Assembly: GCA_003152095.1 (NCBI GenBank)
Contig: PLZI01000045.1
Location: 29,218-66,058, forward strand
Source of the DNA: Acidobacteriota bacterium
GTDB lineage: Bacteria; Acidobacteriota; Thermoanaerobaculia; UBA5066
DNA length: 36,841 bases
Direction of reading: 5' to 3'
Shown: one piece after another, positions 2,931 through 33,515 of the stretch
How positions within the stretch are numbered: the stretch's first letter is position 1
Layout of the letters: each line of letters begins with the position of its first letter
Program-made: the position numbers and the translations under genes
The notes under the pieces: model-generated
Seen by the model: the letters and a program-made list of their open reading frames with translations, nothing else
Database searches by the model: none
What the model was told of the DNA's origin: nothing

Positions 2931-3863
2931 TCAGGGCACGCGGAAGAACGAGAGAGCAAAGCGCGCCTTCTCGTCGATCCAGGAACATTCACACGGAAAG
3001 CCCGCGTCACCAAGGGCGGATCTCAGACCGCTCTCGGTGTATTTGTAGGAAGCTTCGGTGAAGATCGTCTCACCGCGACGAAAGCGGGCGGTCAGTCGAG
3101 CGCCCGGGACCTCGACGCTCTGCGAGACGCAGCTGACCAGATGCATCTCGACGCGACTCCTTCCGGCGTCCCACAGGGCACGGTGCCGAAAAGTGTCCAG
3201 GTCGAACCCGGCGCCGAGCTCGTCGTTCATCCGCCGCAACAGGTTCTTGTTGAAAGACGCCGTCACGCCGAGCGGGTCGTCATAGGCGAGGACGAGGTCC
3301 GCCTCCGGCTTGACGAGATCAGCGCCGAGGAGAAGGCCATCCCCGGGCCGCAGGGCTCGACGAATCCTGGTCAGAAAACGGCGGGCTTGCGGCGGGTCGA
3401 AATTGCCCAGGTTGGATCCGAGAAAGACGACGAGAGCCGGTCCTCGCGCGCGCTGCAGAAGTGCGCTTCCGAGCCCGACCCGATAGTCGGCCCGGAAGGT
3501 CTGAACCGAGAGTCCGCCCCGAACGGCGAGGCGCGACGCGGTCAGGGCGAGCGCCTCCCGCGAGACGTCCACGAGAGCGACGCGCGTCCTCTCGCGCGGC
3601 CCGAGGAGGCCCTCCAAGAGGAGCGCGAGCTTTTCCCCGGTTCCGCAACCGAGCTCCACGACGAGCCCCGGCTTCCCCATTCGCCGGCGGACGACGTGCG
3701 ACGCGCCCGTGAGCAAGCCGAGCTCGGCTCGCGTCACCCGATACCACGGCAGCGCGCAGATCGCACCGAAAAGCCGCGAGCCGAGGTCGTCGTAGAACCA
3801 GCGCGGCGGAAGCCGCTTCGGATCACGCGACAGGCCCGCTCTCACGTCCGCGGCGAAGCTCAC
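2931..3863 (-). CDS. egtD: L-histidine N-alpha-methyltransferase EgtD
   Basis: Makes hercynine by transferring three methyl groups from SAM to the alpha-amine of histidine, the first step of ergothioneine synthesis. The 310-aa length is usual for the family. Visible: PRWFYDDLGSRLFGAICALPWYRVTRAE (about 20-46), typical of the N-terminal part; the SAM-binding ELGCGTGEK (70-78); FLGSNLGNF; and FNKNLLRRMNDELG. Start: GTG 3863 overlaps the egtB TGA as GTGA, the coupling used throughout this window. The open frame continues about 110 codons upstream, but that stretch is a shadow of egtB and has no family similarity. It is the last gene of the desaturase-egtB-egtD unit. Confidence 0.93.
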   Translation of the reverse strand: MSFAADVRAGLSRDPKRLPPRWFYDDLGSRLFGAICALPWYRVTRAELGLLTGASHVVRRRMGKPGLVVELGCGTGEKLALLLEGLLGPRERTRVALVDVSREALALTASRLAVRGGLSVQTFRADYRVGLGSALLQRARGPALVVFLGSNLGNFDPPQARRFLTRIRRALRPGDGLLLGADLVKPEADLVLAYDDPLGVTASFNKNLLRRMNDELGAGFDLDTFRHRALWDAGRSRVEMHLVSCVSQSVEVPGARLTARFRRGETIFTEASYKYTESGLRSALGDAGFPCECSWIDEKARFALSFFRVP

Positions 3864-5149
3864 GCATCCACCGTCCGAAACTTCGCATAGACGAAGGGGT
3901 AGTGCGGCTGGAACCAGTTCCGGAACGAGCGCCGCACGAGCGGCGTCGCGGTCGCCGGCGATGCCCCTTTCAGAACGAAATGGCGGCCGTCGAAAAAATC
4001 CGCTGAATACCCCGGATAGAGCGGCATCGGACGGAAGCCCGGGAAACCGGCAAAGGGCGTCGACGTCCATTCCCATCCGTTCCCGACGAGGTCCTCGATG
4101 CCCCATGCGCTCGCTCCGGCTGGAAAACGGCCCACCGGCAGGGGATCCCAATGTCCGAGGCCGAAGTTGCCGGAGGCCGTTCCGGCCCCCTCGTCGCCCC
4201 ACGGGAACGCCGCCTCGCGGGAGGCGGGACGCCCGAACGCCGCACGGTGGTATTCCGCTTCACTCGGAAGACGCCGGCCTCTCCAGCGCGCATATGCCGA
4301 GGCCTCCGCGTGGCTGACGAAAACGGGCCACGCCGGCGGAAGCGGGATTTCATGGAATTGCGCGCGCCAGAACCAGCGGTCTCCATGCCAGGTCCAGAAT
4401 GCCGGCCGCTCGACGCGCTCGCGCGTCACCCAGCGAAACCCGTCTTCGGTCCAGAGGTCGGCGTCCCGGTAGCCGCCAGCATCCACGAAGTCGAGCCAGC
4501 TCGCGTTCGTCACGGGATAAACGTCCATCTCGAACGTCGCGACGTCCATCGTCCGCTTGGGAAACTCGTTGTCCCAACCGAAAGCGACCTCGCCCGCGCC
4601 GGCGCCCAGCGTCGCACGCCCGGCCGGGATTCTCACGGCCGCGCGTGACGGCGGCCGGCCGCCTGCGTCCGGCGGTGGCACGCCGAGCGGCTCGCGCTTC
4701 AGCGCGTACGCGAGGCGGTGCAACATGTACAAGAGAGTTTCCTGATGCATCTCCTCGTGTTCGAGGATGACGAGGAGCGCCTTGACGGCCTTGGCGGGCA
4801 TTCGAGACTCGAGGATGGCCGCGACCCCTTCATCCGCGGCACGGATGTAGGCCCCGATGCGGTCGCGTTCGGGCCAGGACGACGATCGAACGCCGGAAGC
4901 GTCGAGCGGATCGATCCCGCGCTCGAAGAGCGTCTCCATGCCAGGATCGATTCCAGGTTTTCCGAGAGCCCGCCGGAGAAATGTGTTGACCGCAAAGGCC
5001 GCGAGATGCCCTTCGTAGAACACGAACGGGTGACGAAGGTCGATGGGGCGCTCGAGCCACGCTTGGGGCGTCAGAATCTCGTGAAAGAAGCGGCGCGTCC
5101 ATTCCCGGTTGCGTTTCCACCGCGCGGCGAGAGCCGCGCCCGGCCCCAT
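3860..5149 (-). CDS. egtB: Ergothioneine sulfoxide synthase EgtB
   Basis: Non-haem iron enzyme that joins a thiol (cysteine or gamma-glutamylcysteine) to hercynine with O2. N-terminal DinB-like domain: iron ligand candidates H48, H131 and H135 lie in YEGHLAAF and EHEEMHQE, spaced as in characterised EgtB. Residues 165-429 form the FGE-sulfatase-like domain (FGWDNEFPKRT, YPVTNASWLDFVDAGGY, GNGWEWTSTPF, RNWFQPHYPFVYAKFR). Length 429 aa is normal. ATG 5149 has GAGGG just upstream and lies 7 bp after the desaturase stop. No egtA, egtC or egtE is nearby, as is common outside actinobacteria, where EgtB may use free cysteine. Which thiol is used here is not decided by sequence. Confidence 0.94.
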   Translation of the reverse strand: MGPGAALAARWKRNREWTRRFFHEILTPQAWLERPIDLRHPFVFYEGHLAAFAVNTFLRRALGKPGIDPGMETLFERGIDPLDASGVRSSSWPERDRIGAYIRAADEGVAAILESRMPAKAVKALLVILEHEEMHQETLLYMLHRLAYALKREPLGVPPPDAGGRPPSRAAVRIPAGRATLGAGAGEVAFGWDNEFPKRTMDVATFEMDVYPVTNASWLDFVDAGGYRDADLWTEDGFRWVTRERVERPAFWTWHGDRWFWRAQFHEIPLPPAWPVFVSHAEASAYARWRGRRLPSEAEYHRAAFGRPASREAAFPWGDEGAGTASGNFGLGHWDPLPVGRFPAGASAWGIEDLVGNGWEWTSTPFAGFPGFRPMPLYPGYSADFFDGRHFVLKGASPATATPLVRRSFRNWFQPHYPFVYAKFRTVDA

Positions 5150-14128: not shown

Positions 14129-15907
14129 TCAGACCGCCAACGTCGTCGCCCCTGCCGCGAGCGTCCTCTTCACGACCTCGACGACGCGGTCCGGGGCGAT
14201 CTCAGAGGCCTTCCTCTCACGGCGCGTGGACACCTCGACGACGCCGCGCGCGAGGCCCTTGCCGCCGACGACGACGCGCACCGGGAAGCCGACGAGGTCG
14301 ATGTCCTTGAACTTCACGCCGGGGCGCTCGTCGCGGTCGTCGTAGAAGACCTCGACGCCCGCCGCCTTCAGCTCCTCGTAGAGCTTGTCCGCCGCCGCGA
14401 GGACCGCCGCGTCCCGCTGGAGCGACGCGACGACGCACGCATACGGCGCGAGCGGCACCGGCCAGACGATTCCGACGTCGTCGTGATGCTGCTCGATCGC
14501 CGCCGCGATCGTGCGGCCGAGGCCAAGCCCGTAACATCCCATCGCGAGAGGGACCATTTTCTGATTCTGGTCCGCGACTTCGCATTTCATCGACTCGGAA
14601 TATTTCGTCCCGAGCTTGAAGATGTGCCCCACCTCGATGCCGCGTTTGATGTGAAGCGTGCCCGCGCCCATGGGCGAGGGGTCGCCCTCACGCGCGGTCG
14701 CGATCTCGACGACGCTGGCGAACGCGGGCTGCGACATCACGTCGCGGGCGATGCTCACGCCGGAGTGATGAAGCCCCTCACGATTGGCCCCGCACCAGAG
14801 GTTTGCGCCATGCTCGAGTGAGCGGTCGATGAAGAGGGAGATCGGATTTTCTTCGAATGGAAGAAGACCGAGGGGACCCACGAAACCGGGCCGCGTTCCC
14901 GTCACCTTTCGAAGAATCTCCTCCGAAGCCAGCCTCACATGGAGCGCGCCGATCGCCTTGGGGAGCTTGACCTCGTTGATGTCCAGATCGCCGCGGATCA
15001 GGACGGCGGCGAGGCGCGCCTTGCCGTCCGCTCCGACCGCTTCATAGATCATCGTGTTGACGATGCGCGCAGGAGTCGTCCTGAGATGCTTCGCCTGCCC
15101 CTCGGTCGTCGTAATTCCCGGCGTCGGAGCGTTCGCCTCGCCGAAGGGGCGCGCTTCCTCCCCCGCCCACGGCTCCGGCAGCTTTCCCGTCATGGCCTTC
15201 TCGATGTTCGCGCCGTAGTCGCCCGCATCGGAGAAAACGAGAGCGTCCTCGCCCGTGTCGGCGACGACCATGAACTCCTCGGAGGCCGAGCCGCCGATCG
15301 CGCCCGAGTCGGCCTGGACGACCGCGAACTCGAGGCCGCAGCGGTCGAAAATCCTCCGATACGCTCCGTCCATCTTCTTGTAGTGGGCGTCGAGCCCCTT
15401 CTGGTCGATGTCGAAGGAATAGGCGTCCTTCATCAGGAACTCGCGTCCGCGCAGGAGGCCGAAGCGCGGCCGGATCTCGTCCCGGAACTTCGTCCGGATC
15501 TGATAGAGGTTGAACGGGAGCTGGCGCCAGGACGTGACGGACCGGCGCACCATGTCCGTCACGGCTTCCTCGGCCGTCGGCGCGAGCGCGAACTCCGCGT
15601 CCTTGCGGTCCTTCAGGTGGAAGAGGATCCCCTCGTTCATGTACCGGTCCCAGCGCCCGGACTCCACCCAGAGCTCCTTGGGTTGCAGGATGGGCAGGTC
15701 CACCTCGAGCGCACCGGCGGCGTCCATTTCCTCACGGACGATCTCGGTCATCTTCCGGAGCGATCGAAAGCCGAACGGCGTGTAGGAGTAAATGCCTGCG
15801 GCGAGCTTGTGGACGAGCCCTGCGCGGTAGAGAAGCTGATGGGAGACGACTTCCGCGTCGCCGGGCACTTCCCGCAAAGTGACGAGGAAAGACTGGGACC
15901 AGCGCAT
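14129..15907 (-). CDS. proS: Prolyl-tRNA synthetase, bacterial type
   Basis: Charges tRNA-Pro. The class II core has LLYRAGLVHKLAAGIYSYTPFG (motif 1 region), FRDEIRPRFGLLRGREFLMKDAYSFD (motif 2) and GCYGLGLGRTIAAAIEQ (motif 3). An insertion of about 180 residues between motifs 2 and 3 is the editing (INS) domain that deacylates Ala-tRNA-Pro. The C-terminal anticodon-binding domain covers about 485-592. Length 592 aa is standard. ATG 15907 is chosen because the protein then begins MRWSQSFLVTLREVP, as the family does. TATCCT lies 9 nt upstream and there is no Shine-Dalgarno. Only 37 bp separate it from the divergent aminotransferase. Confidence 0.96.
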   Translation of the reverse strand: MRWSQSFLVTLREVPGDAEVVSHQLLYRAGLVHKLAAGIYSYTPFGFRSLRKMTEIVREEMDAAGALEVDLPILQPKELWVESGRWDRYMNEGILFHLKDRKDAEFALAPTAEEAVTDMVRRSVTSWRQLPFNLYQIRTKFRDEIRPRFGLLRGREFLMKDAYSFDIDQKGLDAHYKKMDGAYRRIFDRCGLEFAVVQADSGAIGGSASEEFMVVADTGEDALVFSDAGDYGANIEKAMTGKLPEPWAGEEARPFGEANAPTPGITTTEGQAKHLRTTPARIVNTMIYEAVGADGKARLAAVLIRGDLDINEVKLPKAIGALHVRLASEEILRKVTGTRPGFVGPLGLLPFEENPISLFIDRSLEHGANLWCGANREGLHHSGVSIARDVMSQPAFASVVEIATAREGDPSPMGAGTLHIKRGIEVGHIFKLGTKYSESMKCEVADQNQKMVPLAMGCYGLGLGRTIAAAIEQHHDDVGIVWPVPLAPYACVVASLQRDAAVLAAADKLYEELKAAGVEVFYDDRDERPGVKFKDIDLVGFPVRVVVGGKGLARGVVEVSTRRERKASEIAPDRVVEVVKRTLAAGATTLAV

Positions 15908-15944
15908 AGGCGCGCGAGGATAACAGGCGATAGACTGAAGATCC
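15908..15944. promoter_or_regulatory. 37-bp divergent leaderless promoter pair (proS / aminotransferase)
   Basis: Minus strand: TATCCT (15922-15917) lies 9 nt before the proS ATG. Plus strand: TAGACT (15931-15936) lies 8 nt before the aminotransferase GTG. The two -10 elements are 8 bp apart. Neither gene has a Shine-Dalgarno, and any -35 would lie in the opposite gene's start region. Confidence 0.5.
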
Positions 15945-17255
15945 GTGGACGTCGCTCCGTACCTCGACTCGCCCGAGAAGAGCGACGCCGGGCTCTCCGC
16001 GCTCGCGCGCGGCGTCGTCGGTTCGGAGATCCTGCGCATCGCGGGAGAGATCCGTGCCGTGCAGGCGACGGGTGTGCCGGTTTGCGACCTGACGATCGGC
16101 GACTTCGATCCGAAGTACTTCCCGATCCCGAAAGAACTGCTCGAAGCCACGCGCAAAGCGCTCGAGGCTGGCCAGACGAACTACCCGCCCGCCGAAGGCA
16201 TCCTGCCGCTGCGCGAAGCGGTCTTGCGGCTCTACGAGAGGGACCTCGGCCTTACGTATCCCGTCGATTCCATCGTCATCGCGGCGGGAGCGCGCCCGCT
16301 CCTCTATGGCGCCTATCGCACGCTCGTCGATCCGGGCGACATCGCGATCTACCCCGTCCCAACCTGGAACAACAACCACTACGCCTACCTGTCGGGCGCA
16401 CGCGGCGTCCCGGTGCCCGTCACGGCCGCGTCCAACTTCTTCCCGACGCCCGACCAGCTCCGCCCGCACCTCTCGTCTGCGCGGCTCCTCATCCTCAACT
16501 CGCCGCTCAATCCCACCGGCACCGTCATCTCGAAGCAAGCCCTGACGGCGATCACGGCGATGGTCTTGGAGGAGAACCGGCGGCGCGAGGCGTCGGGCAA
16601 AAGGCCGCTCTATTTCGTCTTCGACCAGGTCTACTGGACGCTCACGTTCGGTTCGGCCACTCACCACACTCCCGTCGAGGTCGTGCCCGAGAGCGCCCCG
16701 TACGTGATCTTCCTCGACGCGATCTCGAAGGCCTTTTGCGCGACCGGAATGCGCGTGGGCTGGGGCGTCATGCCGCCCGCGATGCGCAAGCGCGTGTCCG
16801 ACATCCTCGGCCACGTGGGCGCGTGGGCGCCGAAAGCCGAGCAGGTCGGCGTCGCGGCACTTCTGAACAAGCCCGAGGCCGTTCAAGTCTTCCGCGACTC
16901 CGTGCGCCAGAAGCTTTCCCAGCGCCTCGAAGCCCTGTACGGCGGCATGATGGACATGAAAAAGGACGGATTTCCCGTGGACGCGATCGAGCCGCAGGGG
17001 GCCATTTACCTCTCGGCGCGTTTCGACCTCTGCGGCCGCAACGTGAACGGGACCGTCCTCAAGACGAACGACGACGTGCGGCGCCTCCTCCTCGGAGCTG
17101 GCCTCGGCGTCGTCCCGTTCCAGGCGTTCGGTCTCGCGGGCGAGTCGGGCTGGTTCCGGCTCTCGGTCGGCGCGGTTTCGATGGACGACATCGCCGCCGC
17201 GTTCCCGCGGCTACGCGCCCTCCTCGCCGCCGTGCCTGCGCCCGCCGTGCGCTGA
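15945..17255 (+). CDS. Class I/II PLP-dependent aminotransferase
   Basis: Fold-type I aminotransferase. The motif NSPLNPTGTV, FVFDQVYW with the PLP-ring Asp and Tyr, and ISKAFCATGMRVGW with the Schiff-base Lys are all present; FRLSVGA near the C-terminus carries the substrate-carboxylate Arg. Length 436 aa is slightly above the aspartate aminotransferase average. It is cytoplasmic. The amino-acid substrate cannot be assigned; the SKAFCATG form departs from the usual SKSF-type sequence. GTG 15945 is in a leaderless arrangement. The TetR gene begins 23 bp after its stop, with its own -10 element. Confidence 0.9.
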   Translation: MDVAPYLDSPEKSDAGLSALARGVVGSEILRIAGEIRAVQATGVPVCDLTIGDFDPKYFPIPKELLEATRKALEAGQTNYPPAEGILPLREAVLRLYERDLGLTYPVDSIVIAAGARPLLYGAYRTLVDPGDIAIYPVPTWNNNHYAYLSGARGVPVPVTAASNFFPTPDQLRPHLSSARLLILNSPLNPTGTVISKQALTAITAMVLEENRRREASGKRPLYFVFDQVYWTLTFGSATHHTPVEVVPESAPYVIFLDAISKAFCATGMRVGWGVMPPAMRKRVSDILGHVGAWAPKAEQVGVAALLNKPEAVQVFRDSVRQKLSQRLEALYGGMMDMKKDGFPVDAIEPQGAIYLSARFDLCGRNVNGTVLKTNDDVRRLLLGAGLGVVPFQAFGLAGESGWFRLSVGAVSMDDIAAAFPRLRALLAAVPAPAVR

Positions 17256-17266
17256 CCCCTCGGCGC

Positions 17267-17272
17267 TACACT
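17267..17272 (+). promoter_or_regulatory. -10 element of the single-domain tetR gene
   Basis: TACACT lies 6 nt before GTG 17279. The hexamer is identical to the one before the desaturase gene. There is no Shine-Dalgarno. Confidence 0.42.
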
Positions 17273-17278
17273 CCAAGT

Positions 17279-17935
17279 GTGGAGCAGGACAAGAAGTCCG
17301 AGAGGAGCCAGGCGGCCATTCTCGATGCCGCGCTGGATCTGTTCTCGAGCCAGGGCTACCGGGGAACCAGCATCCGCGAGATCGCAGGGGCGGCCGGCCT
17401 TTCGACCGGAAATGTCTACCACCACTTCCCCGACAAGGAGACGATCTTCCAGACCGTCCTCGGCCAATACTGGAGGGCGATCGAGAGCCCGGACTTCCCG
17501 TTCAACAAGGCCCTCGCCTCGGGGGCGTTCCCGGACAACCTCGAGGAGCTCGCCGTCGCCGCGCGCGAGAGCGTCCGGCTCTGGCGGCGCCACGTCGCCC
17601 TCATCTACGTCGACGTCGTCGAGCTCTCCGGAAACCACATCCGGAAGTTCTATTCGGAGATGGCCACGCGCTTCGAGCGGTTCATCGTCGCGCACGGCGA
17701 CTCCGTCTCGGGCGAGATCCGCCCCGGCGTTCCCGTCACGACCGCCGTCATACTCGCGAGCCGCGTCTTCCTCCAGTACTACGCGGTCGAGATCCTCTTC
17801 GGCGTCCCGGAGCAGTTCGGCAAGGACAGCGACCTCGTCATGGCCGAGATCGCCGAGATCCTGCGGCACGGGATGTTGCGCGAGTGCACCGCCCCGACCG
17901 GGACGCGCCAGGTGCTCGCGCGCGCCCGCCGCTGA
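17279..17935 (+). CDS. TetR/AcrR-family transcriptional regulator
   Basis: A 218-aa one-domain TetR repressor. The N-terminal HTH is QAAILDAALDLFSSQGYRGTSIREIAGAAGLSTGNVYHHFPDKETIF (about 10-57). The rest is helical and would bind a ligand, probably an acyl-CoA or lipid-like effector given its neighbours. GTG 17279 is the only start fitting the family N-terminus; a far longer frame upstream is a shadow of proS and the aminotransferase. It is convergent with the SDR gene. Its operator is not identified. Confidence 0.9.
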   Translation: MEQDKKSERSQAAILDAALDLFSSQGYRGTSIREIAGAAGLSTGNVYHHFPDKETIFQTVLGQYWRAIESPDFPFNKALASGAFPDNLEELAVAARESVRLWRRHVALIYVDVVELSGNHIRKFYSEMATRFERFIVAHGDSVSGEIRPGVPVTTAVILASRVFLQYYAVEILFGVPEQFGKDSDLVMAEIAEILRHGMLRECTAPTGTRQVLARARR

Positions 17936-18006: not shown

Positions 18007-18801
18007 CTACTTCGCGATCCCCCCGGGGTAGCACAGGCCGCCCGTGATTTCGATCGTGGTGGCGTTCAACGCCTCGTTCTCGACGCAGAAGCCAATCATG
18101 GAGGCGACCTCCTCGGGCGCGACGAGCCGGCCGAGATGCACGTCCTGGAGGATCGCCTTCAAGGCGTCCTGATTCATGCCGGTGAGCATGGGAGTCGCCG
18201 TGTAGCCGGGAGCGATCGCCACGCAGCGAACGTTCCGGATGCCCCGCATCAGAAATTCCCCGACGATGATCTTCGGCATCAGAGCGTCGGCGACCTTCGC
18301 GGACGAGTAGTTGATCTGGCCCACCTGGCCGACCTTGTTGACGGACGAGATCGGCACGAGAAGGCCCGGCCAGCCGCCGTTCACCATGGCCTCCGCCGCG
18401 TCCCGCATCGTGAGGAAGGTGCCGGTCAGGTTCGTGTCGATCACCGCCTGCCATTTGTCGAGGCCGAGCTTCCTGGACACCTGGCCCGTTTCCTTGTCGA
18501 GGTTCAGCATCATGCCGTCGCGGATGACGCCGGCCGACGACACGGCGATGTTCAGCTTGCCGAAGGCCTCGATCGTTCCCTTGATGAACCGGGCCGTATC
18601 GGCTTCGCTCGTGACGTTCGCCTGGATGCCGATCGCCTCGCCGCCCATCTTCTGGACGTCGGCGACGACGCGGTCGATGTTCTTTTGCACGAGGTCCACG
18701 ACGGCGACCTTCGCGCCCCGCGCGACGAAGTGCTTCACGACCGCCTCGCCGATCCCGTTCCCTCCGCCCGTGACGAGCGCAACGCTGTTCTTCAGTTCCA
18801 T
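18007..18801 (-). CDS. Short-chain dehydrogenase/reductase (FabG-like)
   Basis: A 264-aa classical SDR, NAD(P)(H)-dependent, likely acting on a 3-oxoacyl or 3-hydroxyacyl thioester. Visible: cofactor motif VTGGGNGIG (10-18); the SSAG of the central strand; PISSVNKVGQVGQINYSSAK, containing the catalytic Ser and YxxxK; and VAIAPGYTATPML. It ends GGLCYPGG, close to the GG-x-x of FabG proteins. ATG 18801 has GGAAGGA about 8 nt upstream. It is the last gene of the minus-strand operon starting at 22452, after the 105-aa repeat protein. A role in reducing or oxidising a beta-keto intermediate is inferred from context. Confidence 0.9.
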   Translation of the reverse strand: MELKNSVALVTGGGNGIGEAVVKHFVARGAKVAVVDLVQKNIDRVVADVQKMGGEAIGIQANVTSEADTARFIKGTIEAFGKLNIAVSSAGVIRDGMMLNLDKETGQVSRKLGLDKWQAVIDTNLTGTFLTMRDAAEAMVNGGWPGLLVPISSVNKVGQVGQINYSSAKVADALMPKIIVGEFLMRGIRNVRCVAIAPGYTATPMLTGMNQDALKAILQDVHLGRLVAPEEVASMIGFCVENEALNATTIEITGGLCYPGGIAK

Positions 18802-18863
18802 GGCGCATCCTTCCGCATCGAACGTTCAGTCGAATGAAACCGGAGGAACCCGCCGGCGTCCGG

Positions 18864-19181
18864 TCAGGGTTCCTTCGGGCACGAAACGCTGTCCTTGTCC
18901 CAGTAGACGAAATTGGGGTGCGCGACGTCCGGCCCCACGATCTTCAGGTCGCCGATGGTGTTGGGATGGGCGACGTCCGGGCCGACGGACTTCACGCCAA
19001 CCGGAAACAACGTCCGGATCAGCGCGAGCGCCCGCGCCCGCGCCTCGGCCTCCGGGAGTCCGGCGAAGAGACCGGTGCCCGCCGTCGCGCTGGAACCGTC
19101 CGCCAACGTGCAGCGGATGTTCCACCGGTCGCCGTCTTTCTCGACCGTGAAGTCCATGTCGTTGTAACGAATGGGTTGCAT
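18864..19181 (-). CDS. 105-aa protein with tandem VGPDVAHPN repeat
   Basis: Unrecognised small cytoplasmic protein. Residues 1-60 (MQPIRYNDMDFTVEKDGDRWNIRCTL...) look like a compact alpha/beta domain with an LPEAEARARALALI helix. The C-terminal third has two exact copies of VGPDVAHPN, 16 residues apart. The DNA of the two 27-bp copies differs at five sites, all third codon positions and all silent, which shows selection on the peptide. ATG 19181 has GAGAGGA about 6 nt upstream and lies 17 bp after the thiolase stop, so it belongs to the operon. It has no cysteine ribbon, so it is not the DUF35 partner often seen with such thiolases. Confidence 0.72.
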   Translation of the reverse strand: MQPIRYNDMDFTVEKDGDRWNIRCTLADGSSATAGTGLFAGLPEAEARARALALIRTLFPVGVKSVGPDVAHPNTIGDLKIVGPDVAHPNFVYWDKDSVSCPKEP

Positions 19182-19198
19182 GAGCGTCCTCTCGCGCG

Positions 19199-20440
19199 TC
19201 AGAGCTTCTTCAGGACCGTGACGCAGTTCGTGACCGCCGAGCCGCCGACGTTGAACGACACGCCGACGTCGGCCTTCTTCGCTTTCACCCCGATCGGCTC
19301 GCCGATGAGCTGCTTGTAGATGAGGGCGTGCATCGAGACGCCCGTGGCGCCCACGGGGTGCCCCTTGGACTTCAGTCCGCCCGAGAGGTTGATCGCGACC
19401 TTGTCGTCGGGCGTGAAACGCCCGTCGAGGTAGTCGTAGCCGGCGCGGCCGTCCTTCGAGAAGCCGAGCGTCTCGGTCGACATGATCTGGTTGATCGTGA
19501 AGCAGTCGTGAACCTCGGCGAAGTCGACGTCGGCGGCCGTGATGCCGGCCTCCTTGTAGGCCTTGGCCGTCGCGTCCCTGCCGGCCATGAGGTCGTACAT
19601 GTTCGGCCTCACGTTTTCGGGCAGGCGCTCGACGGAGTGGCCGATGCCGGCGATCACGGCGGCGCGCTTCTTGTTCGGGACGTCCGGAGTGCGGGTGATG
19701 ACGACGGCCGCGGCCCCGTCCGTGACGAGCGAGCAGTCGTGCAGGCGGAGCGGGGGCGCGATCATCATGTTCTTGCACTTGCCCTTCGCGTCCGGCTCGT
19801 TGAGCTTCATGATCGCCTCGACGGTCGTCGGGCCGTTTCTCACGTGGGCGAGCGGGTTCTCGGCGCCGTTCTTGTAGCAGAGGGCGCCGGCGGTCCAGAG
19901 CATCTTCTCGAGGTTGGCGTCCTTGATCTTGTAGTGCGCCTGGTATCCCTTTGCGTATTCCGCGAAGAGCATCGGGAACGACATGCCGCGCGAGCCTTCG
20001 CTCGGCCAGTGAGACGAGCAGGCCAGCACGTGGGTCATCTGTGGAGTCGGGAGGAGGTTCATCTTCTCGACGCCGATTACGAGGACGCGCTTCGCGCGGC
20101 CGGCTTCGACGGCGTAGAGGGCGCTGTAGAGGGCGACCGAGCCGGACGCGCAGGCGCACTCGCAGCGCGTCATCGGTTTGAACCTCAGGTCCGGATGGAT
20201 TTCGGCGGCGATCGGGGCGACGTGCTCCTGGTTGATGAAGGAGCCCGGCGAGCACGACCCGACGAAGACGGCGTCGATGTCCTTCGCCTCGAGGCCGGCG
20301 TCGGCGATCGCGCCGCGGCCCGCCTCGACGAGCAGGTCGTAGTACGTCTTCGTGTCGGTCATCAGGCCGCGCGCCTTGTCCTTCTTCACGAAGGCGCCGA
20401 ACTGGGTGTTGTGGGCGCCAATGATGCTCACGTTGCTCAT
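19199..20440 (-). CDS. Thiolase-family acyl-CoA acyltransferase
   Basis: A 413-aa thiolase of the SCP-x/lipid-transfer branch. The nucleophilic Cys lies in RCECACASGSVALYSA (about 93-108). EVHDCFTINQI carries the His of the NEAF-equivalent region. GGLKSKGHPVGATG is the GHPxGATG motif, and the C-terminal FNVGGSAVTNCV replaces the usual Cys-Gly box (CxG) with a Gly-Gly-Ser form. This suggests thiolytic cleavage or condensation of an unusual 3-oxoacyl-CoA. ATG 20440 overlaps the hydrolase stop (ATGA). Its neighbours are a KAS III-like protein, an alpha/beta hydrolase and an SDR. Confidence 0.88.
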   Translation of the reverse strand: MSNVSIIGAHNTQFGAFVKKDKARGLMTDTKTYYDLLVEAGRGAIADAGLEAKDIDAVFVGSCSPGSFINQEHVAPIAAEIHPDLRFKPMTRCECACASGSVALYSALYAVEAGRAKRVLVIGVEKMNLLPTPQMTHVLACSSHWPSEGSRGMSFPMLFAEYAKGYQAHYKIKDANLEKMLWTAGALCYKNGAENPLAHVRNGPTTVEAIMKLNEPDAKGKCKNMMIAPPLRLHDCSLVTDGAAAVVITRTPDVPNKKRAAVIAGIGHSVERLPENVRPNMYDLMAGRDATAKAYKEAGITAADVDFAEVHDCFTINQIMSTETLGFSKDGRAGYDYLDGRFTPDDKVAINLSGGLKSKGHPVGATGVSMHALIYKQLIGEPIGVKAKKADVGVSFNVGGSAVTNCVTVLKKL

Positions 20441-21402
20441 ATCGGGTGTCCTTTCGGATGTGGACCGGTGGCGGGTGATTGCGGGAGCGCAGGCGCGTCG
20501 CCGAGCGCCTTCTCGAGGGCGGAGAGGAAACGCTCGGCGGCCTCCTGCTGGGGCACGTGCCCGCAGCGCTCGACGGGGATGAGCGCGACGTCGGGCAGGA
20601 CGGCCGCCATGCGCCGGGCGTAGTCCAGGGGCATCAGTCCGTCGGAGACGCCCCAGACGAGGCGGACGGGGACCTCAAAGGCGCGCAGCTGGTCCTCGCC
20701 GAGGAGGAACGGCGCCATCCCCGCCGCCGCGGCCGCGAGGCGGGCGATGGGGCTGGTCGCGCTGCGCCGCACGACGTCGTCGAGGACCCGGTCGGGAATG
20801 GCCGGGCTGCCGGCGTCCCGCAGCCGCGCCATCGTCTCCCGCGCCTCCTCGCGCGTCTTCGGCAGGAGATTCGGGCCGCCGCCCGAGCCCACCAGGGGCC
20901 CGCCGTTCACGGCGACCACCCGTTCGACCCGCTCGGGATGCCGGGCCGCGAAGACCATGGCCATCCAGGCGCCGAGGGAGTTGCCCACGAGGGTCACCCG
21001 GCCGCCCGCCGCCTGGTCCGAGATCACCGCTTCGAGGCCGCCGAGAACGTCGGAAAACGGGATGGGGCCGACGGACGGCGCGCTGTCGCCGTGGCCGGCG
21101 AGGTCGGGAATCACGAGCGTGTAGCGCCGCGCCAGGGACGGAGCCACGTGGAACCACGTGCCCGCCTGGTCCCCGGCCCCGTGCAGGAGCACGAGCACCG
21201 GGCCCGATCCTCCGACGAAGGCCGTCTGGGAGCCGGCGGGCGCCCGGACGACGATCTTCTTCAATCCGGCTCGGCGCAGCGAGCGCCGTGCACCCCACGC
21301 AAATACTTCGAGAGGCCGTTTGACGAGCAGCCAGCCCGCGAAAAGACCACCGGCGACGAGCAGAGCGAGTAGCACGGTCGCCGCGATCTCCCACGTCGTC
21401 AT
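20437..21402 (-). CDS. Alpha/beta hydrolase with N-terminal membrane anchor
   Basis: A 321-aa alpha/beta-hydrolase-fold protein. Residues 6-28 are strongly hydrophobic (IAATVLLALLVAGGLFAGWLL), suggesting a single membrane anchor. VLLHGAGDQAG is the oxyanion-hole strand, GNSLG the nucleophile elbow, and the downstream VWGVSDGLMPLDYAR and ERCGHVPQQEAAERF supply the Asp and His. It probably hydrolyses an ester, thioester or C-C bond in the operon pathway. ATG 21402 has GGAGG upstream. Thiolase translation is coupled through ATGA. Confidence 0.88.
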   Translation of the reverse strand: MTTWEIAATVLLALLVAGGLFAGWLLVKRPLEVFAWGARRSLRRAGLKKIVVRAPAGSQTAFVGGSGPVLVLLHGAGDQAGTWFHVAPSLARRYTLVIPDLAGHGDSAPSVGPIPFSDVLGGLEAVISDQAAGGRVTLVGNSLGAWMAMVFAARHPERVERVVAVNGGPLVGSGGGPNLLPKTREEARETMARLRDAGSPAIPDRVLDDVVRRSATSPIARLAAAAAGMAPFLLGEDQLRAFEVPVRLVWGVSDGLMPLDYARRMAAVLPDVALIPVERCGHVPQQEAAERFLSALEKALGDAPALPQSPATGPHPKGHPI

Positions 21403-21438: not shown

Positions 21439-22452
21439 TCACCCGGCACAGGGCCCCCACTGGATGACGGTGGCGGCCCAGACGAAGCCGAGGCCCGCGC
21501 CCACGAAGACGACGTGCGACCCGTCCCGGATCTTTCCGTCCCGGAGGCCGAGCTCGAGGGAGAGAACTTGGTCGTTCTGGCCGAGGTGGCCGTAGTCGTC
21601 GAGGTAGGTGCTCTGCTCCGGCTTCAGGCCCAGCTCCGCGAGCACGGCGTCGTGGGCGCTCTTCTTGAAGTGGAGGATGGCGAGGTAGTCGATGGCGTTC
21701 TCCGGCAGGCCCGAGAACTTCAGCGCCTCGCGGATCACGGCGTAGAAGTTGGGCATCGTGACCTCGTTCAACTTGTTCTTGAACGCCTCCTCGTCGGGCA
21801 CGACGAAGTGGGCGCGTGCGACGTCTTCCGGCGCGGGCGGCCAGGCCGAGGCGCCGAGCGCGGGCACGATGCACATCTCGGACAGGGAGCCGTCTCCACG
21901 GAAGGCGGACGCGAGGACGGCATTTCGCCCCGCGTTCTTCTTCAGGACGACGGCCGAGCCGCCGGACCCGATGTCGAGCATGAAGCGCGTCGCGGGGACG
22001 GACAGGTCGATGAGATCGTTGTTCCGGTAGCCCGAGACGAGGAGGACGGTGTCGAGCCCGGGGTGCGTCAGCATCAGGGACTTGGCGACGTCGAGGGCGG
22101 CCATCATGGAGCCGCACATCGCTTCCATGTCGAAGCTCCACGCTTTCTTTGCTCCGATCTTGTCGGCCACGTAGAGGCCCGCGAGCCAGCAGGGATAGTC
22201 CTTGTGCTGGGCTCCGCACCAGATCACGAGGTCGACGGCGGCGCCCTCGATGCCCGCGGAGGCAAGGGCCTTCCGGGCGGCGGCCAGTCCCATGAAGGCG
22301 GTCGTTTCGCCGGGGCCCGCGACGGGTTTTTCCTTCACGCCGAATTTCAGGGCGATGACGTTTTCGGGGATCCCGGTCGCCGCGGCAAGGTCCGCCGCGG
22401 TCATCCTGCCCGGAGGGAGCCAGGTTCCGTGGCCGAGGATACCGACGTGCAT
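21439..22452 (-). CDS. FabH-like ketoacyl synthase III homologue (His-for-Asn active site)
   Basis: A 337-aa thiolase-superfamily condensing enzyme. The nucleophilic Cys is C113 in DMEAMCGSMMAAL. The region of FabH His244 reads DYLAILHFKKSAHD, keeping a His. The region of Asn274 (HGNTSAAS in E. coli) reads YGHLGQND, so Asn is replaced by His. The C-terminal VVFVGAGLGFVWAATVIQW is typical. Such changes are seen in KAS III relatives that do not make fatty-acid primers. ATG 22452 has GGAGG 6 nt upstream; ten upstream codons are rejected because they would sit in the promoter/operator. It is the first gene of the operon to 18007. Confidence 0.88.
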   Translation of the reverse strand: MHVGILGHGTWLPPGRMTAADLAAATGIPENVIALKFGVKEKPVAGPGETTAFMGLAAARKALASAGIEGAAVDLVIWCGAQHKDYPCWLAGLYVADKIGAKKAWSFDMEAMCGSMMAALDVAKSLMLTHPGLDTVLLVSGYRNNDLIDLSVPATRFMLDIGSGGSAVVLKKNAGRNAVLASAFRGDGSLSEMCIVPALGASAWPPAPEDVARAHFVVPDEEAFKNKLNEVTMPNFYAVIREALKFSGLPENAIDYLAILHFKKSAHDAVLAELGLKPEQSTYLDDYGHLGQNDQVLSLELGLRDGKIRDGSHVVFVGAGLGFVWAATVIQWGPCAG

Positions 22453-22465
22453 TTGATTCCTCCAT

Positions 22466-22484
22466 GAGAAGTGAATCAACTCTC
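22466..22484. promoter_or_regulatory. Operator candidate O1 for the double-TetR regulator
   Basis: A 19-bp imperfect palindrome of form GAGAnnTGAnTCAnnTCTC. It abuts the -10 of the minus-strand promoter and covers its start site. A related site, inverted, lies at 22627-22645; the two share GAGAAGTGA plus the TCA half-core. Confidence 0.6.
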
Positions 22485-22512
22485 AATATAGGCCGATTCG
22501 CCCGTCTCTCAA
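22485..22512 (-). promoter_or_regulatory. Promoter of the KAS III-thiolase-SDR operon
   Basis: Minus strand: TTGAGA (22512-22507), 16-bp spacer, TATATT (22490-22485). The predicted start near 22478 lies inside operator candidate O1 and leaves a short 5' leader with GGAGG before ATG 22452. Confidence 0.62.
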
Positions 22513-22591
22513 GGGAAAAGTGGAGCGAACTCCGGGTTCCCGGAAGCTGCCTGCAACGAGCCCGGGTCTCGCGTTTCTTCCTGCTTTTCGC

Positions 22592-22620
22592 TTGCCGATG
22601 GCGAAAACAGGGGCTACCTT
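22592..22620 (+). promoter_or_regulatory. Promoter of the double-tetR / CoA-transferase unit
   Basis: Plus strand: TTGCCG (22592-22597), 17-bp spacer, TACCTT (22615-22620). The predicted start near 22627 falls on operator candidate O2. It supports ATG 22655 over the further upstream in-frame ATG at 22520. Confidence 0.5.
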
Positions 22621-22626
22621 GTATGT

Positions 22627-22645
22627 GACGACTGAATCACTTCTC
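22627..22645. promoter_or_regulatory. Operator candidate O2 for the double-TetR regulator
   Basis: The core ACTGAATCACT is a near-palindrome. Read on the minus strand, the 19-bp site begins GAGAAGTGATTCA, matching O1 in 12 of its first 13 bases. It overlaps the predicted plus-strand start site. Confidence 0.55.
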
Positions 22646-22654
22646 ACGCCAGGC

Positions 22655-23881
22655 ATGGAGGTCGGATTGCCGCCCCGGGCGAAGCAGGCGAAGGCGTCGA
22701 ACAAGGGCCGAGGCAATCCGGAGGCGGCGGAACGCCTCCTGACGGCCGCAGTCGAGCTCTTCTCGAAGAAGTGGTACGGCACCGTGTCCGTGGCCGAGAT
22801 GTGCCGCGCGGCGGGCCTCTCGAACGGCGTCTTCTACCGCTACTACGACGACAAGGAAGCGCTCTTCAAGGTTATCCTCGGCCGGATCCTCGACCAGGTG
22901 CGGGAAGCGCTCGAGCGCGTCGACGGAGAAACGCCCCGCGAGCGCCTGCGCAGCTATGCCGAGGCGATCGTCCGCTTCTCCGAGGAGCACGCCGACCTCG
23001 TCTCCGTCTTCCGCGAGGGGCAGTATCGCTACTTCGAGTACGAGCGGCGCCTCGTCGCCATCTACATGCGGAGCCTCGGCGCCGCCCTCGGAAGGGAGAT
23101 CGGCCTCGCCGAATACCTCTTCGCCCTCGGCGGCCTCCGATTCTGCGCGATCAACTGGGCCTTCAACGCCGCCCCCGTCCAGCTCGAAGCGGTGTGCGGC
23201 ATCCTCACGGACGGCCTCTTCCGCGGCCTCGACTTCGACCCCGACAAGGTCTTCGGCGGGACCGCCACGCCCCTTCCCGTCGCCCTCGAGGAGGGGGCGC
23301 GCGAGCGCCTCCTCCGGTCCGGACGCAGGCTCTTCGGGGACAAGGGCTTCTTCGAGACGAACGTCCACGAGGTGACGGACGGCGCGCAGCTCTCGGTCGG
23401 CGCCTTCTACACCTACTTCGACTCCAAGGAAGCCTTCTACGGCGAGCTCATCGCGAAGGTCGGCCACGACGCGCGCGCCTTCATCGCGGGGAACCTGGCG
23501 GCTCCCGGGGCGGCGCCGCTCAACGCCCTCGAGTTCGAGCTGCGCGGGCTCTGGCTCTGGCTCATCTACCTCTCGATCGACAAGTATTGTTACAACATCG
23601 TGCGCGAGGCCGAGTTCGTCCTTCCCGCGGCCGTGCGCGACTACTACGCGGCCTTCGCGGCCGGCTACCGGAAGCGGCCGGCCCGACTCCGGGTCACGAG
23701 CGCCGCTCCCGGAGTGGACGAGGGGACCGCGATCGAATACCTCATGGGCCTCGCCCATTACTTCGGAATGGAGACCGCCTTCGACGGATCGCCCGTGGAC
23801 GCGCGGGTCCTCGTCGAGACCATCGGACGCTATCTGGCCCGGGGTCTATCGGAGTTTCTGTCCCGAGAGGAGCTGACATGA
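22655..23881 (+). CDS. Tandem double-TetR transcriptional regulator
   Basis: A 408-aa polypeptide with two complete TetR N-terminal DNA-binding domains. The first is at about 24-75 (AAERLLTAAVELFSKKWYGTVSVAEM, then SNGVFYRYYDDKEALF). The second is at about 212-266 (ARERLLRSGRRLFGDKGFFETNVHEV, then SVGAFYTYFDSKEAFY). Each is followed by a helical segment, so the gene looks like a fused TetR pair, twice the usual 190-220 aa. The two halves are clearly diverged. ATG 22655 lies downstream of the mapped promoter; an earlier in-frame GTG at 22625 is possible. The CoA-transferase overlaps its stop (ATGA). It likely represses both divergent promoters by binding O1 and O2, perhaps with one polypeptide acting like a dimer. 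Confidence 0.85.
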   Translation: MEVGLPPRAKQAKASNKGRGNPEAAERLLTAAVELFSKKWYGTVSVAEMCRAAGLSNGVFYRYYDDKEALFKVILGRILDQVREALERVDGETPRERLRSYAEAIVRFSEEHADLVSVFREGQYRYFEYERRLVAIYMRSLGAALGREIGLAEYLFALGGLRFCAINWAFNAAPVQLEAVCGILTDGLFRGLDFDPDKVFGGTATPLPVALEEGARERLLRSGRRLFGDKGFFETNVHEVTDGAQLSVGAFYTYFDSKEAFYGELIAKVGHDARAFIAGNLAAPGAAPLNALEFELRGLWLWLIYLSIDKYCYNIVREAEFVLPAAVRDYYAAFAAGYRKRPARLRVTSAAPGVDEGTAIEYLMGLAHYFGMETAFDGSPVDARVLVETIGRYLARGLSEFLSREELT

Positions 23882-25185
23882 ACCCGCAGGACATCTACCG
23901 CAGCAAACTGGTCGCCGTGGACGACGCGGTCTCCCGCATCGCCAGCAACAACGACGTGATCGTCGCGATGTGCGCCTCCGAGCCCCAGGGCTGCATGTCC
24001 CGCTTCCACATCGTGGCCGACCGCGTGGAGAACGTCCGCGTCTTCTCCTGCCTCACGCTGAAGCCCTACGACTTCTACATGAAACGCGAGATGAAGGGGC
24101 ACTTCGAGCTCGCGAGCTGGTTCCACGCGCCCGGGTCGCGCGAAGCCCTGAAGAACGGCGTCGGGACCGTGACGTACGTCCCCAACATGCTCCACCGCGC
24201 GGCCATGGACCGCATCCACGCCCGCCGGCCCGACATCTTCTTTGGCACCTGCACCCCGCCCGACAAGCACGGGTTCGTTTCCCTGTCCCTCGGCATCACC
24301 TACGAGCAGGACATCATCGAGGCCGCCCGCCTCGTCGTGCTCGAGGTCAACCCGCGCCTCCCGCGGACTCTGGGCGACACCCAGGTCCACGTCTCGAAGG
24401 TGGACTTTTTCGTCCTGAACGACCAGGAGGTCCCGACGCTCCCTTCGCCCGTGCCGTCCGCGACCGACCTCGCGATCGGCGCGTACATCGCGGACCTCGT
24501 CGAGGACGGGTCGACCATCCAGCTCGGCATCGGCGGCATCCCGAACGCGGCCGCCCTCGCCCTGAAGGACAAGAGGGACCTCGGCGTCCACACGGAGATG
24601 TTCGTCGACTCGATGATGGAGCTCTACGAGATGGGCGTCATCACGAACACGAGGAAGGCCCTCAAGCCGGGCAAGTTCGTCACGACGTTCGCGATGGGCT
24701 CGCGCAAGCTCTACGACTGGCTCGACGACAACGTCGCCGTGGAGTTCATCCGGGGGAACTGGGTGAACAACCCCGCCGTCGTCAGCCAGAACTCGAGGAT
24801 GGTCTCCATCAACACCTGCATCTCGGTGGACTTCACCGGGCAGGTCGCGAGCGAGTCGATCGGCACGAGCCAGTACTCGGGGACGGGCGGCCAGTCCGAC
24901 ACGGCCCAGGGCGCCGTGGCCGGCTTCGACGGTCTCGGGAAGAGCATCATCGCCTGCGCGAGCACGGCCCGGGGCGGGAAGCTCTCCACGATCGTCCCGA
25001 CCCTGCCGGAGGGCTCGGCCGTGACGCTGCACCGCTCCCACGTGGACCACGTCGTCACCGAGAACGGCGTCGCCCGTCTCCGGGGCAAGACGGTGCGCGA
25101 ACGGACGCGGGAGCTCATCGCGATCGCCCACCCCGACTTCCGCGCCGACCTCACGGCGAAGGCGAAGGCCCTCGGGTACCTCTGA
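23878..25185 (+). CDS. Acetyl-CoA hydrolase / 4-hydroxybutyrate-type CoA-transferase
   Basis: A 435-aa family I CoA-transferase of the acetyl-CoA hydrolase group. It moves CoA between carboxylates, so it can activate an imported acid with acetyl-CoA or similar. Visible: QLGIGGIPNAAALAL (oxyanion loop) and GVHTEMFVDSMMELYEMGVITN, which carries the catalytic Glu that forms the glutamyl-CoA thioester. GQVASESIG and GTGGQSD are also conserved. ATG 23878 has GAGAGGAG upstream and overlaps the regulator stop. Within the family, 4-hydroxybutyrate, butyrate and succinate enzymes are alternatives; the acid cannot be named. Confidence 0.9.
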   Translation: MNPQDIYRSKLVAVDDAVSRIASNNDVIVAMCASEPQGCMSRFHIVADRVENVRVFSCLTLKPYDFYMKREMKGHFELASWFHAPGSREALKNGVGTVTYVPNMLHRAAMDRIHARRPDIFFGTCTPPDKHGFVSLSLGITYEQDIIEAARLVVLEVNPRLPRTLGDTQVHVSKVDFFVLNDQEVPTLPSPVPSATDLAIGAYIADLVEDGSTIQLGIGGIPNAAALALKDKRDLGVHTEMFVDSMMELYEMGVITNTRKALKPGKFVTTFAMGSRKLYDWLDDNVAVEFIRGNWVNNPAVVSQNSRMVSINTCISVDFTGQVASESIGTSQYSGTGGQSDTAQGAVAGFDGLGKSIIACASTARGGKLSTIVPTLPEGSAVTLHRSHVDHVVTENGVARLRGKTVRERTRELIAIAHPDFRADLTAKAKALGYL

Positions 25186-32522: not shown

Positions 32523-33515
32523 TCACGGCATGATGAACGCAGCGGCGGCCTGGTTGTATCCGACGCCCGAACCGACCATCACGAGCCGGTCGCCTGAACG
32601 GATTCTCTTCTTTGCGAGCGCGTCGTCGAGGGCCATCGGGATGCACGCGGACCCTGTGTAGCCCCACTCCTCCATGATGGTGTGCGTCCTCTCCATCGGC
32701 AGGCCGAGGTCGGCCATGACGAGGTCGATCGACGGCTTGCGGACCTGCGTGAAGATGATGAAGTCGATGTCGGAGACGGAAAACCCGGATCCCGCGGCGA
32801 GCTTGCGCACGAGCCTCGGCCAGCCCTCGTGGTTGATCTCCGGCGGGTAGCGCTCGAGCATCTTCACCGTCGTCCGGCCGGCCTTCACCGACTCCACGGT
32901 CGCGGGCTCGTAGGTGCCCCCCGAGTAGATTCCCCAGTACTTGTGGTACGCGCCGCCCGCCTGCGCGGCGGCGCCCGCGAAGCCGGGCCGGTCGGCGCCG
33001 ACGAGCACGGCCGCGCCGGCTCCGTCCCCGTAGAAGAAGTTCAGCGGGTCGTCGGTCGCGGCCAGTTTGTGCATGAGGTAGACGCCGACCACGAGCACCG
33101 TGCGGATCGCCGGGTTGGTCGCGATCCAGCCGGCCGCGGAGGCCAGCGCGGTGGGAAACGACGCGCACGCGCACCCCACGTCGAAGGTGCCCGCGTTCAC
33201 GGCACCCAGCTTGTACTGAAGGACGACCGAGGTCGCCGGTGTGATGTAGTCCGGCGAGTCGGTGCCGAGGATGATCAGGTCGACGTCCTCGGGCCGCACG
33301 CCGGCGCGCTCGAGCGCCTGCCGGGCGGCGGGCAGAGCCACGTCCGAAGTGGCCCAGTCCTCAGGAGCGTTCCACCGGCAGCGGATCCCGGAGGACGCCT
33401 CCATCTTGTCGACGAACTCGGGTAAATGCGCGAACCGCTTGCGCAGGTCGTCATTGTGCACGCGGATCTCGGGGAGGTAACACCCTGTCGAAACGATCGA
33501 CGCGAATCGGTTCAT
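32523..33515 (-). CDS. KAS III homologue with non-canonical active site (Cys-Thr-Tyr)
   Basis: A 330-aa FabH-superfamily protein. The nucleophile is kept: C117 in FDVGCACASF aligns with E. coli FabH C112. Aligning DFIIFTQVRKPSI with DWLVPHQANLRII puts T256 at His244; 30 residues on, as in FabH, WGYTGSACIP puts Y286 at Asn274 (HGNTSAASVP). The His and Asn that drive malonyl decarboxylation are therefore absent, so a non-decarboxylating acyl transfer, hydrolysis or a different condensation is more likely (inference). ATG 33515 has only a weak ribosome site. A strong promoter lies 100 bp upstream with a palindrome just after its start point. The porin follows 136 bp downstream; the gap between them holds no gene. 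Confidence 0.88.
   Translation of the reverse strand: MNRFASIVSTGCYLPEIRVHNDDLRKRFAHLPEFVDKMEASSGIRCRWNAPEDWATSDVALPAARQALERAGVRPEDVDLIILGTDSPDYITPATSVVLQYKLGAVNAGTFDVGCACASFPTALASAAGWIATNPAIRTVLVVGVYLMHKLAATDDPLNFFYGDGAGAAVLVGADRPGFAGAAAQAGGAYHKYWGIYSGGTYEPATVESVKAGRTTVKMLERYPPEINHEGWPRLVRKLAAGSGFSVSDIDFIIFTQVRKPSIDLVMADLGLPMERTHTIMEEWGYTGSACIPMALDDALAKKRIRSGDRLVMVGSGVGYNQAAAAFIMP

Follow-up and report, generated by a model that had tools for sequence, protein, structure and literature searches.

A double-TetR regulator in an Acidobacteriota locus and its paired, asymmetrically conserved predicted operators

Most TetR proteins are symmetric homodimers. In such a dimer both half-sites must co-evolve, a constraint from which a fused pair is freed. 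The window analyzed here, a stretch of 36,841 nucleotides from an Acidobacteriota bacterium, contains a gene that a sequence-only reading had described as encoding one 408-residue chain with two full TetR DNA-binding domains (about residues 24 to 75 and 212 to 266), each with its own helical region. This raises the questions of whether the fusion is real and how a chain with two diverged DNA-binding domains might recognize its operators.

Fusion of two TetR units in one gene

The regulator gene (P0001; 22655..23881, plus strand) is a single, uninterrupted open reading frame with its ATG at 22655 and its TGA at 23879-23881, the same frame being open from position 22520. The Pfam TetR_N profile (PF00440) matched the protein twice, with an E value of 1.1e-22 for the whole protein, and searches with the isolated halves located the matches at residues 28-72 (E value of 3.2e-11) and 219-264 (E value of 3.5e-10), near the proposed positions. 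The scores of 43.2 and 39.9 bits both exceeded the curated cutoff of 24. The HTH of the N-half lies at 22736..22870 and that of the C-half at 23309..23446 (both plus strand), with the recognition helices LSNGVFYRY and LSVGAFYTY, respectively. The halves are homologous to each other at 28% identity (E value of 2e-9), and this value and the differing recognition helices agree with the earlier proposal that they had diverged. An AlphaFold2 model of the full chain, built with 68 family members, had a pLDDT of 90.3 and a pTM of 0.89, with both halves modeled confidently and, as in other TetR proteins, an all-helical region following each HTH (helices 67-186 and 258-396). The concern that the second half might not be an HTH domain was removed by this model and by the profile match of the C-half to the full TetR protein SaFadR (E value of 1e-40). 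With two TetR units carried on one continuous chain of about 400 residues, the regulator has the architecture of the double-TFR proteins.

The other concern was that an assembly or sequencing artifact had joined two adjacent TetR genes. Apart from the unusual length, nothing was found in favor of this explanation, whereas unbroken orthologs were present in three related genomes (G003, 96% identity; G004, 83%; G010, 82%) and the same fusion was shared by dozens of independent assemblies, including the single-contig genomes G150 and G453. An assembly join or frameshift, which has virtually no chance of being correct, was therefore rejected; two fused, diverged TetR proteins are encoded here as one real gene.

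A scan with one genome per species returned 76 loci, mostly single open reading frames of about 360 to 470 residues. Beyond the three close orthologs, about 65 further double-TetR loci were found in Holophagaceae (including Geothrix fermentans), in Spirochaetota, where carriers were many, and in Thermotogota and Bipolaricaulota, which widens the range of double-TetR repressors past the Actinomycetes that the Mce3R paper mentions. Among the genomes of the window's own relatives the regulator was patchy (4 of 61), yet it was 64 to 78% identical in Holophagaceae, another class, which suggests that the locus was horizontally transferred.

When the model was compared with the PDB by Foldseek, the top match over both halves was Mce3R (Rv1963c) of M. 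tuberculosis, a double TetR of solved structure (PDB 9b7y; PMC11667970), with an E value of 4.5e-8, TM scores of 0.48/0.51, and an rmsd of 8.6 Å. Next came single-chain acyl-CoA regulators (SaFadR, FadR, and FasR) among other TetR proteins. A profile match of Mce3R to the whole chain was also obtained (E value of 2.7e-21). Since the TM score is only about 0.5 at this rmsd, the model does not establish that the halves are placed as in Mce3R. The confident full-chain model, the top rank of Mce3R, and the finding that the Mce3R monomer forms an intrachain TetR-like assembly (PMC11667970) nevertheless favor a pseudodimeric chain, in which the two halves would pack like the subunits of a TetR dimer to give two nonidentical HTHs per chain.

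Predicted operators at two putative divergent promoters

The genes around the regulator encode enzymes of the acyl-CoA and thiolase superfamilies. Divergent from it lies a KASIII-like gene (PRK06840; 21439..22452, minus strand; ATG at 22452 after GGAGG), the first in a presumed operon whose remainder (18007..21402, minus strand) includes an alpha/beta hydrolase (20437-21402), a thiolase (19199-20440), and a FabG-like SDR (18007-18801). Downstream, the ATG of a CoA-transferase/acetyl-CoA hydrolase family gene (23878..25185, plus strand) overlaps the TGA of the regulator (ATGA at 23878-23881). The KASIII neighbor and the downstream CoA-transferase were conserved at orthologous loci. A second KASIII-like gene occurs elsewhere in the neighborhood (32523-33515, minus strand), and in Spirochaetota a second KASIII gene immediately follows the regulator, ahead of the CoA-transferase (L061:5091-6140). 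A branched-chain-type ABC transporter is encoded on the minus strand past the CoA-transferase. An ordinary single-domain TetR gene (17277-17935, plus strand) adjoins the SDR gene; its TetR_N match comprises residues 794-838 of the 14939-17935 frame, and its DNA-binding region is 40% identical to that of the double TetR. Farther away (2931-5149, minus strand), a gene for a histidine-specific methyltransferase (Methyltransf_33) neighbors one for an FGE-sulfatase protein. The two form an EgtD/EgtB-like pair, which suggests biosynthesis of the ergothioneine type.

Two operators, predicted from conservation, were found upstream of the regulator. O1, TGAGAAGTGAATCAACTCTCA (22465..22485, plus strand), is an imperfect 21-bp palindrome with 8 of 10 pairs matched, whose strict arm is the right-hand one when read along the plus strand; O2, TGACGACTGAATCACTTCTCA (22626..22646, plus strand), is a similar palindrome with 7 of 10 pairs. 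They are oriented as direct repeats 161 bp apart. Such sites were first spotted by eye in upstream alignments, and a symmetric model then recovered them in nearly all orthologs. The two operators were kept at about 45 orthologous loci, mostly facing a divergent KASIII gene, and the conserved core was found at orthologous loci of two phyla. In 14 of 15 genomes, two to four exact core sites were counted per genome, while the control with the pattern reversed matched once overall; this points to a regulon that is mainly local. Outside the locus, a few genomes carry one or two additional exact matches to the core (G785 at C69:18288 and C122:45889; also G449, G453, G003, and G004), and these are possible further regulon members. 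Double-TetR loci below about 42% identity mostly lacked the motif, and a palindrome scan of the distant ones (below 40%) gave no shared motif except relaxed core sites at L133 (two) and L132 (one). At L133, whose double TetR is 38% identical, the motif occurred at -348 and -43 with TCTTA replacing TCTCA.

O1 abuts the -10 element of TTGAGA-16-TATATT (22485..22512, minus strand), a putative promoter for the KASIII operon that scored 10 of 12 in a consensus scan, with 0.1 expected in shuffled sequences. O2 lies between the start codon and the -10 element of a putative regulator promoter (TTGCCG-17-TACCTT; 22592..22620, plus strand), which the consensus scan did not return and which was read from the sequences; its hexamer spacing was retained in G003, G004, and G010. 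Both operators are positioned in a manner that appears suited to repression. The presence of two operators with a near-invariant core, lying at the putative promoters, and the conservation of the KASIII and CoA-transferase genes favor a repressor. We therefore consider it fairly likely that the regulator is a single-chain pseudodimeric TetR repressor of its own operon and of the KASIII operon, with one strict and one loose HTH and release by an acyl-CoA-type ligand. It would bind O1 and O2, each just downstream of one of the two divergent promoters; binding at O2 would cause autorepression of the regulator and CoA-transferase operon, and binding at O1 would repress the divergent KASIII-hydrolase-thiolase-SDR operon, until a pathway intermediate of acyl-CoA type probably relieved repression.

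The ligand is suggested by analogy. SaFadR, the FadR of Sulfolobus acidocaldarius, is an acyl-CoA-responsive repressor (PDB 6el2/6en8; PMC6449355), and its match to the C-half runs over both the DNA-binding and the ligand-binding domains, the homology through the ligand domain placing the C-half with the SaFadR subfamily. The locus also resembles that of SaFadR, which represses a local acyl-CoA/beta-oxidation cluster at semipalindromic sites; unlike the regulator, SaFadR is a single-domain chain that forms a homodimer. The SaFadR-like C-half and the acyl-CoA enzyme neighbors make an acyl-CoA ligand plausible, although the SaFadR CoA contacts are only partly kept: in the alignment, only Arg73 (R274) of Arg73, Lys77, Arg86, and Arg132 was clearly retained in the window protein, and the equivalent of Arg86 was A291, this position being R in the family consensus.

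Unequal conservation of operator arms and recognition helices

In both operators a nearly invariant arm, GAATCRNYTCTCA, is paired with a degenerate mirror arm, and the orientation was constant at nearly every site. The 21-bp palindrome is centered on GAWTC, and its strict arm, YTCTCA, is nearly invariant. Across 72 nonredundant sites the mean mismatches of 5 were 0.01 for the strict arm versus 2.3 for the mirror arm, a contrast that is partly by construction because the sites were gathered with a pattern fixing most of the strict arm. Independent support came from a symmetrized matrix, which favors neither orientation and yet recovered this strict arm, facing one way, at almost all sites. The first 18 sites, chosen by similarity to the symmetric ideal, were already asymmetric in a flip test that ignored relatedness (pooled P value of 0.0009; 0.12 for O1 and 0.04 for O2 separately). 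At L067/L068, loci without a divergent KASIII neighbor, one operator (at about -151 relative to the start of the regulator) was reversed, indicating that motif and orientation are not strictly coupled.

The sequence-only reading had suggested that one chain might read two half-sites of different sequence. The invariant and degenerate arms and the differing helices give this idea indirect and only partial support, as the arms mirror one palindrome rather than being unrelated in sequence. Consistent with the latter, a purely nonpalindromic 14-bp operator with unrelated half-sites was dropped as the main reading, O1 and O2 being imperfect 21-bp palindromes whose loose arm is a degenerate mirror. 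The mirroring also bears on an arrangement that is unlikely but credible, in which like halves pair with like (N with N and C with C) or two chains occupy overlapping sites as a dimer of dimers in the manner of QacR or SaFadR. The 14-bp core TGAATCRNYTCTCA would then form a single site from two differing half-sites, TGAATC and TGAGAR, with the loose arm serving as a second, weak site in mirror orientation. The loose arm does mirror the strict arm about GAWTC, position -4 being A in 76 to 100% of sites; two single chains of Mce3R also form a homodimer (PMC11667970), and with SaFadR a further dimer can be loaded to one side of its inverted repeat (PMC6449355). However, symmetric sites would be expected from such pairing, yet the sites are conserved asymmetrically.

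In favor of a single-chain pseudodimer with unequal HTHs is a parallel between the strict and loose arms and the invariant and variable recognition helices. The SaFadR residues Y47, G48, L49, Y51, and F52 contact bases (PMC6449355), and two N-half residues that align with these contacts, N57 and R62, were present in 45 of 45 and 44 of 45 core orthologs, respectively. In contrast, C-half position 253, the equivalent of F52, varied (T/K/R/L). From this correlation of conservation, the N-half HTH is probably the one that fixes YTCTCA, and the second HTH would read the mirror arm loosely.

The same variability at position 253 could mean that only one HTH is functional and that the other half is a dimerization or ligand domain whose HTH is decaying, leaving a loose arm, and in Spirochaetota sites this arm was indeed near background at several positions. 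Such a decay is quite improbable given that the G, F-Y, and K positions of both helices were kept in all or nearly all of the 45 core orthologs, that identity to the window protein was no lower in the C-terminal DNA-binding domain (0.73) than in the N-terminal one (0.70), and that the A at -4 of the mirror arm was kept. The dozens of natural operators with one arm frozen and the other free make a division of specificity between two HTHs testable.

O1-O2 spacings ranged from 108 to 353 bp, and helical phasing was tried. A best period of 10.6 to 10.7 bp was obtained in-sample, with P values of <0.001 to 0.05 depending on how relatives were collapsed. It was not upheld with one median for each of seven clusters (P value of 0.64) or in six held-out loci (P values of 0.29 to 0.51), and neither phasing nor looping is claimed.

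Known double TetRs and the origin of the fusion

Laboratory-built single-chain TetR (scTetR) fusions also carry two TetR units per chain and can read asymmetric operators; these were engineered from TetR, whereas the regulator is natural and anciently diverged. Double TetRs are already known as a kind, and the architecture is not unprecedented: 204 putative double TFRs have been predicted in Actinomycetes (as cited in PMC11667970), with the same architecture in another phylum. Searches of the open-access literature for other double-TetR families gave Mce3R as the sole relevant result. It has about 406 residues, two full TetR halves per chain, and two diverged HTHs, and an autoregulated lipid-gene regulon, two sites upstream of the target operon, and asymmetric recognition are traits that are predicted for the regulator as well. 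At 18% identity and a TM score of about 0.5, the regulator resembles Mce3R but is not clearly its relative by descent. The Mce3R sites are described as nonpalindromic, whereas the predicted sites here are degenerate palindromes. Compared with the Mce3R pattern of an asymmetric operator occurring twice at its target, each locus here has two predicted sites that are asymmetrically conserved.

A tree of 24 N-halves and 24 C-halves, with several long branches, placed all N-halves in one group and all C-halves in another (100/98), consistent with one fusion event for this family. A branch at 100/98.6 separated the C-halves together with SaFadR from the remaining sequences. Mce3R, included only as the fragments M1 and M2 from printed alignments, grouped elsewhere; forcing these fragments to join the family gave p-AU values of 0.0353 (M2 with C-halves) and 0.0745 (M1 with N-halves), so a fusion separate from that of Mce3R is favored but not proven. 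No description of this double-TetR lineage, its SaFadR-like C-half, or its operator design was found in the open-access literature, and these look undescribed. Their status apart from Mce3R rests on the operator design and on a probably separate fusion, and it would be weaker if the fusion were shared. A bolder proposal, which we put forward tentatively and regard as rather unlikely, is a separately evolved cross-phylum family in which one HTH has nearly all the specificity and the other is relaxed, the operator, one arm of it frozen and the other free, occurs twice in fixed orientation, and the two divergent promoters may be brought together in a loop by a pair of dimerized chains. The actinobacterial double TetR encountered here, from Gordonia rhizosphera (L097, 3914-5170), apparently arose by its own tandem duplication, as its two halves were sisters in the tree (100/98).
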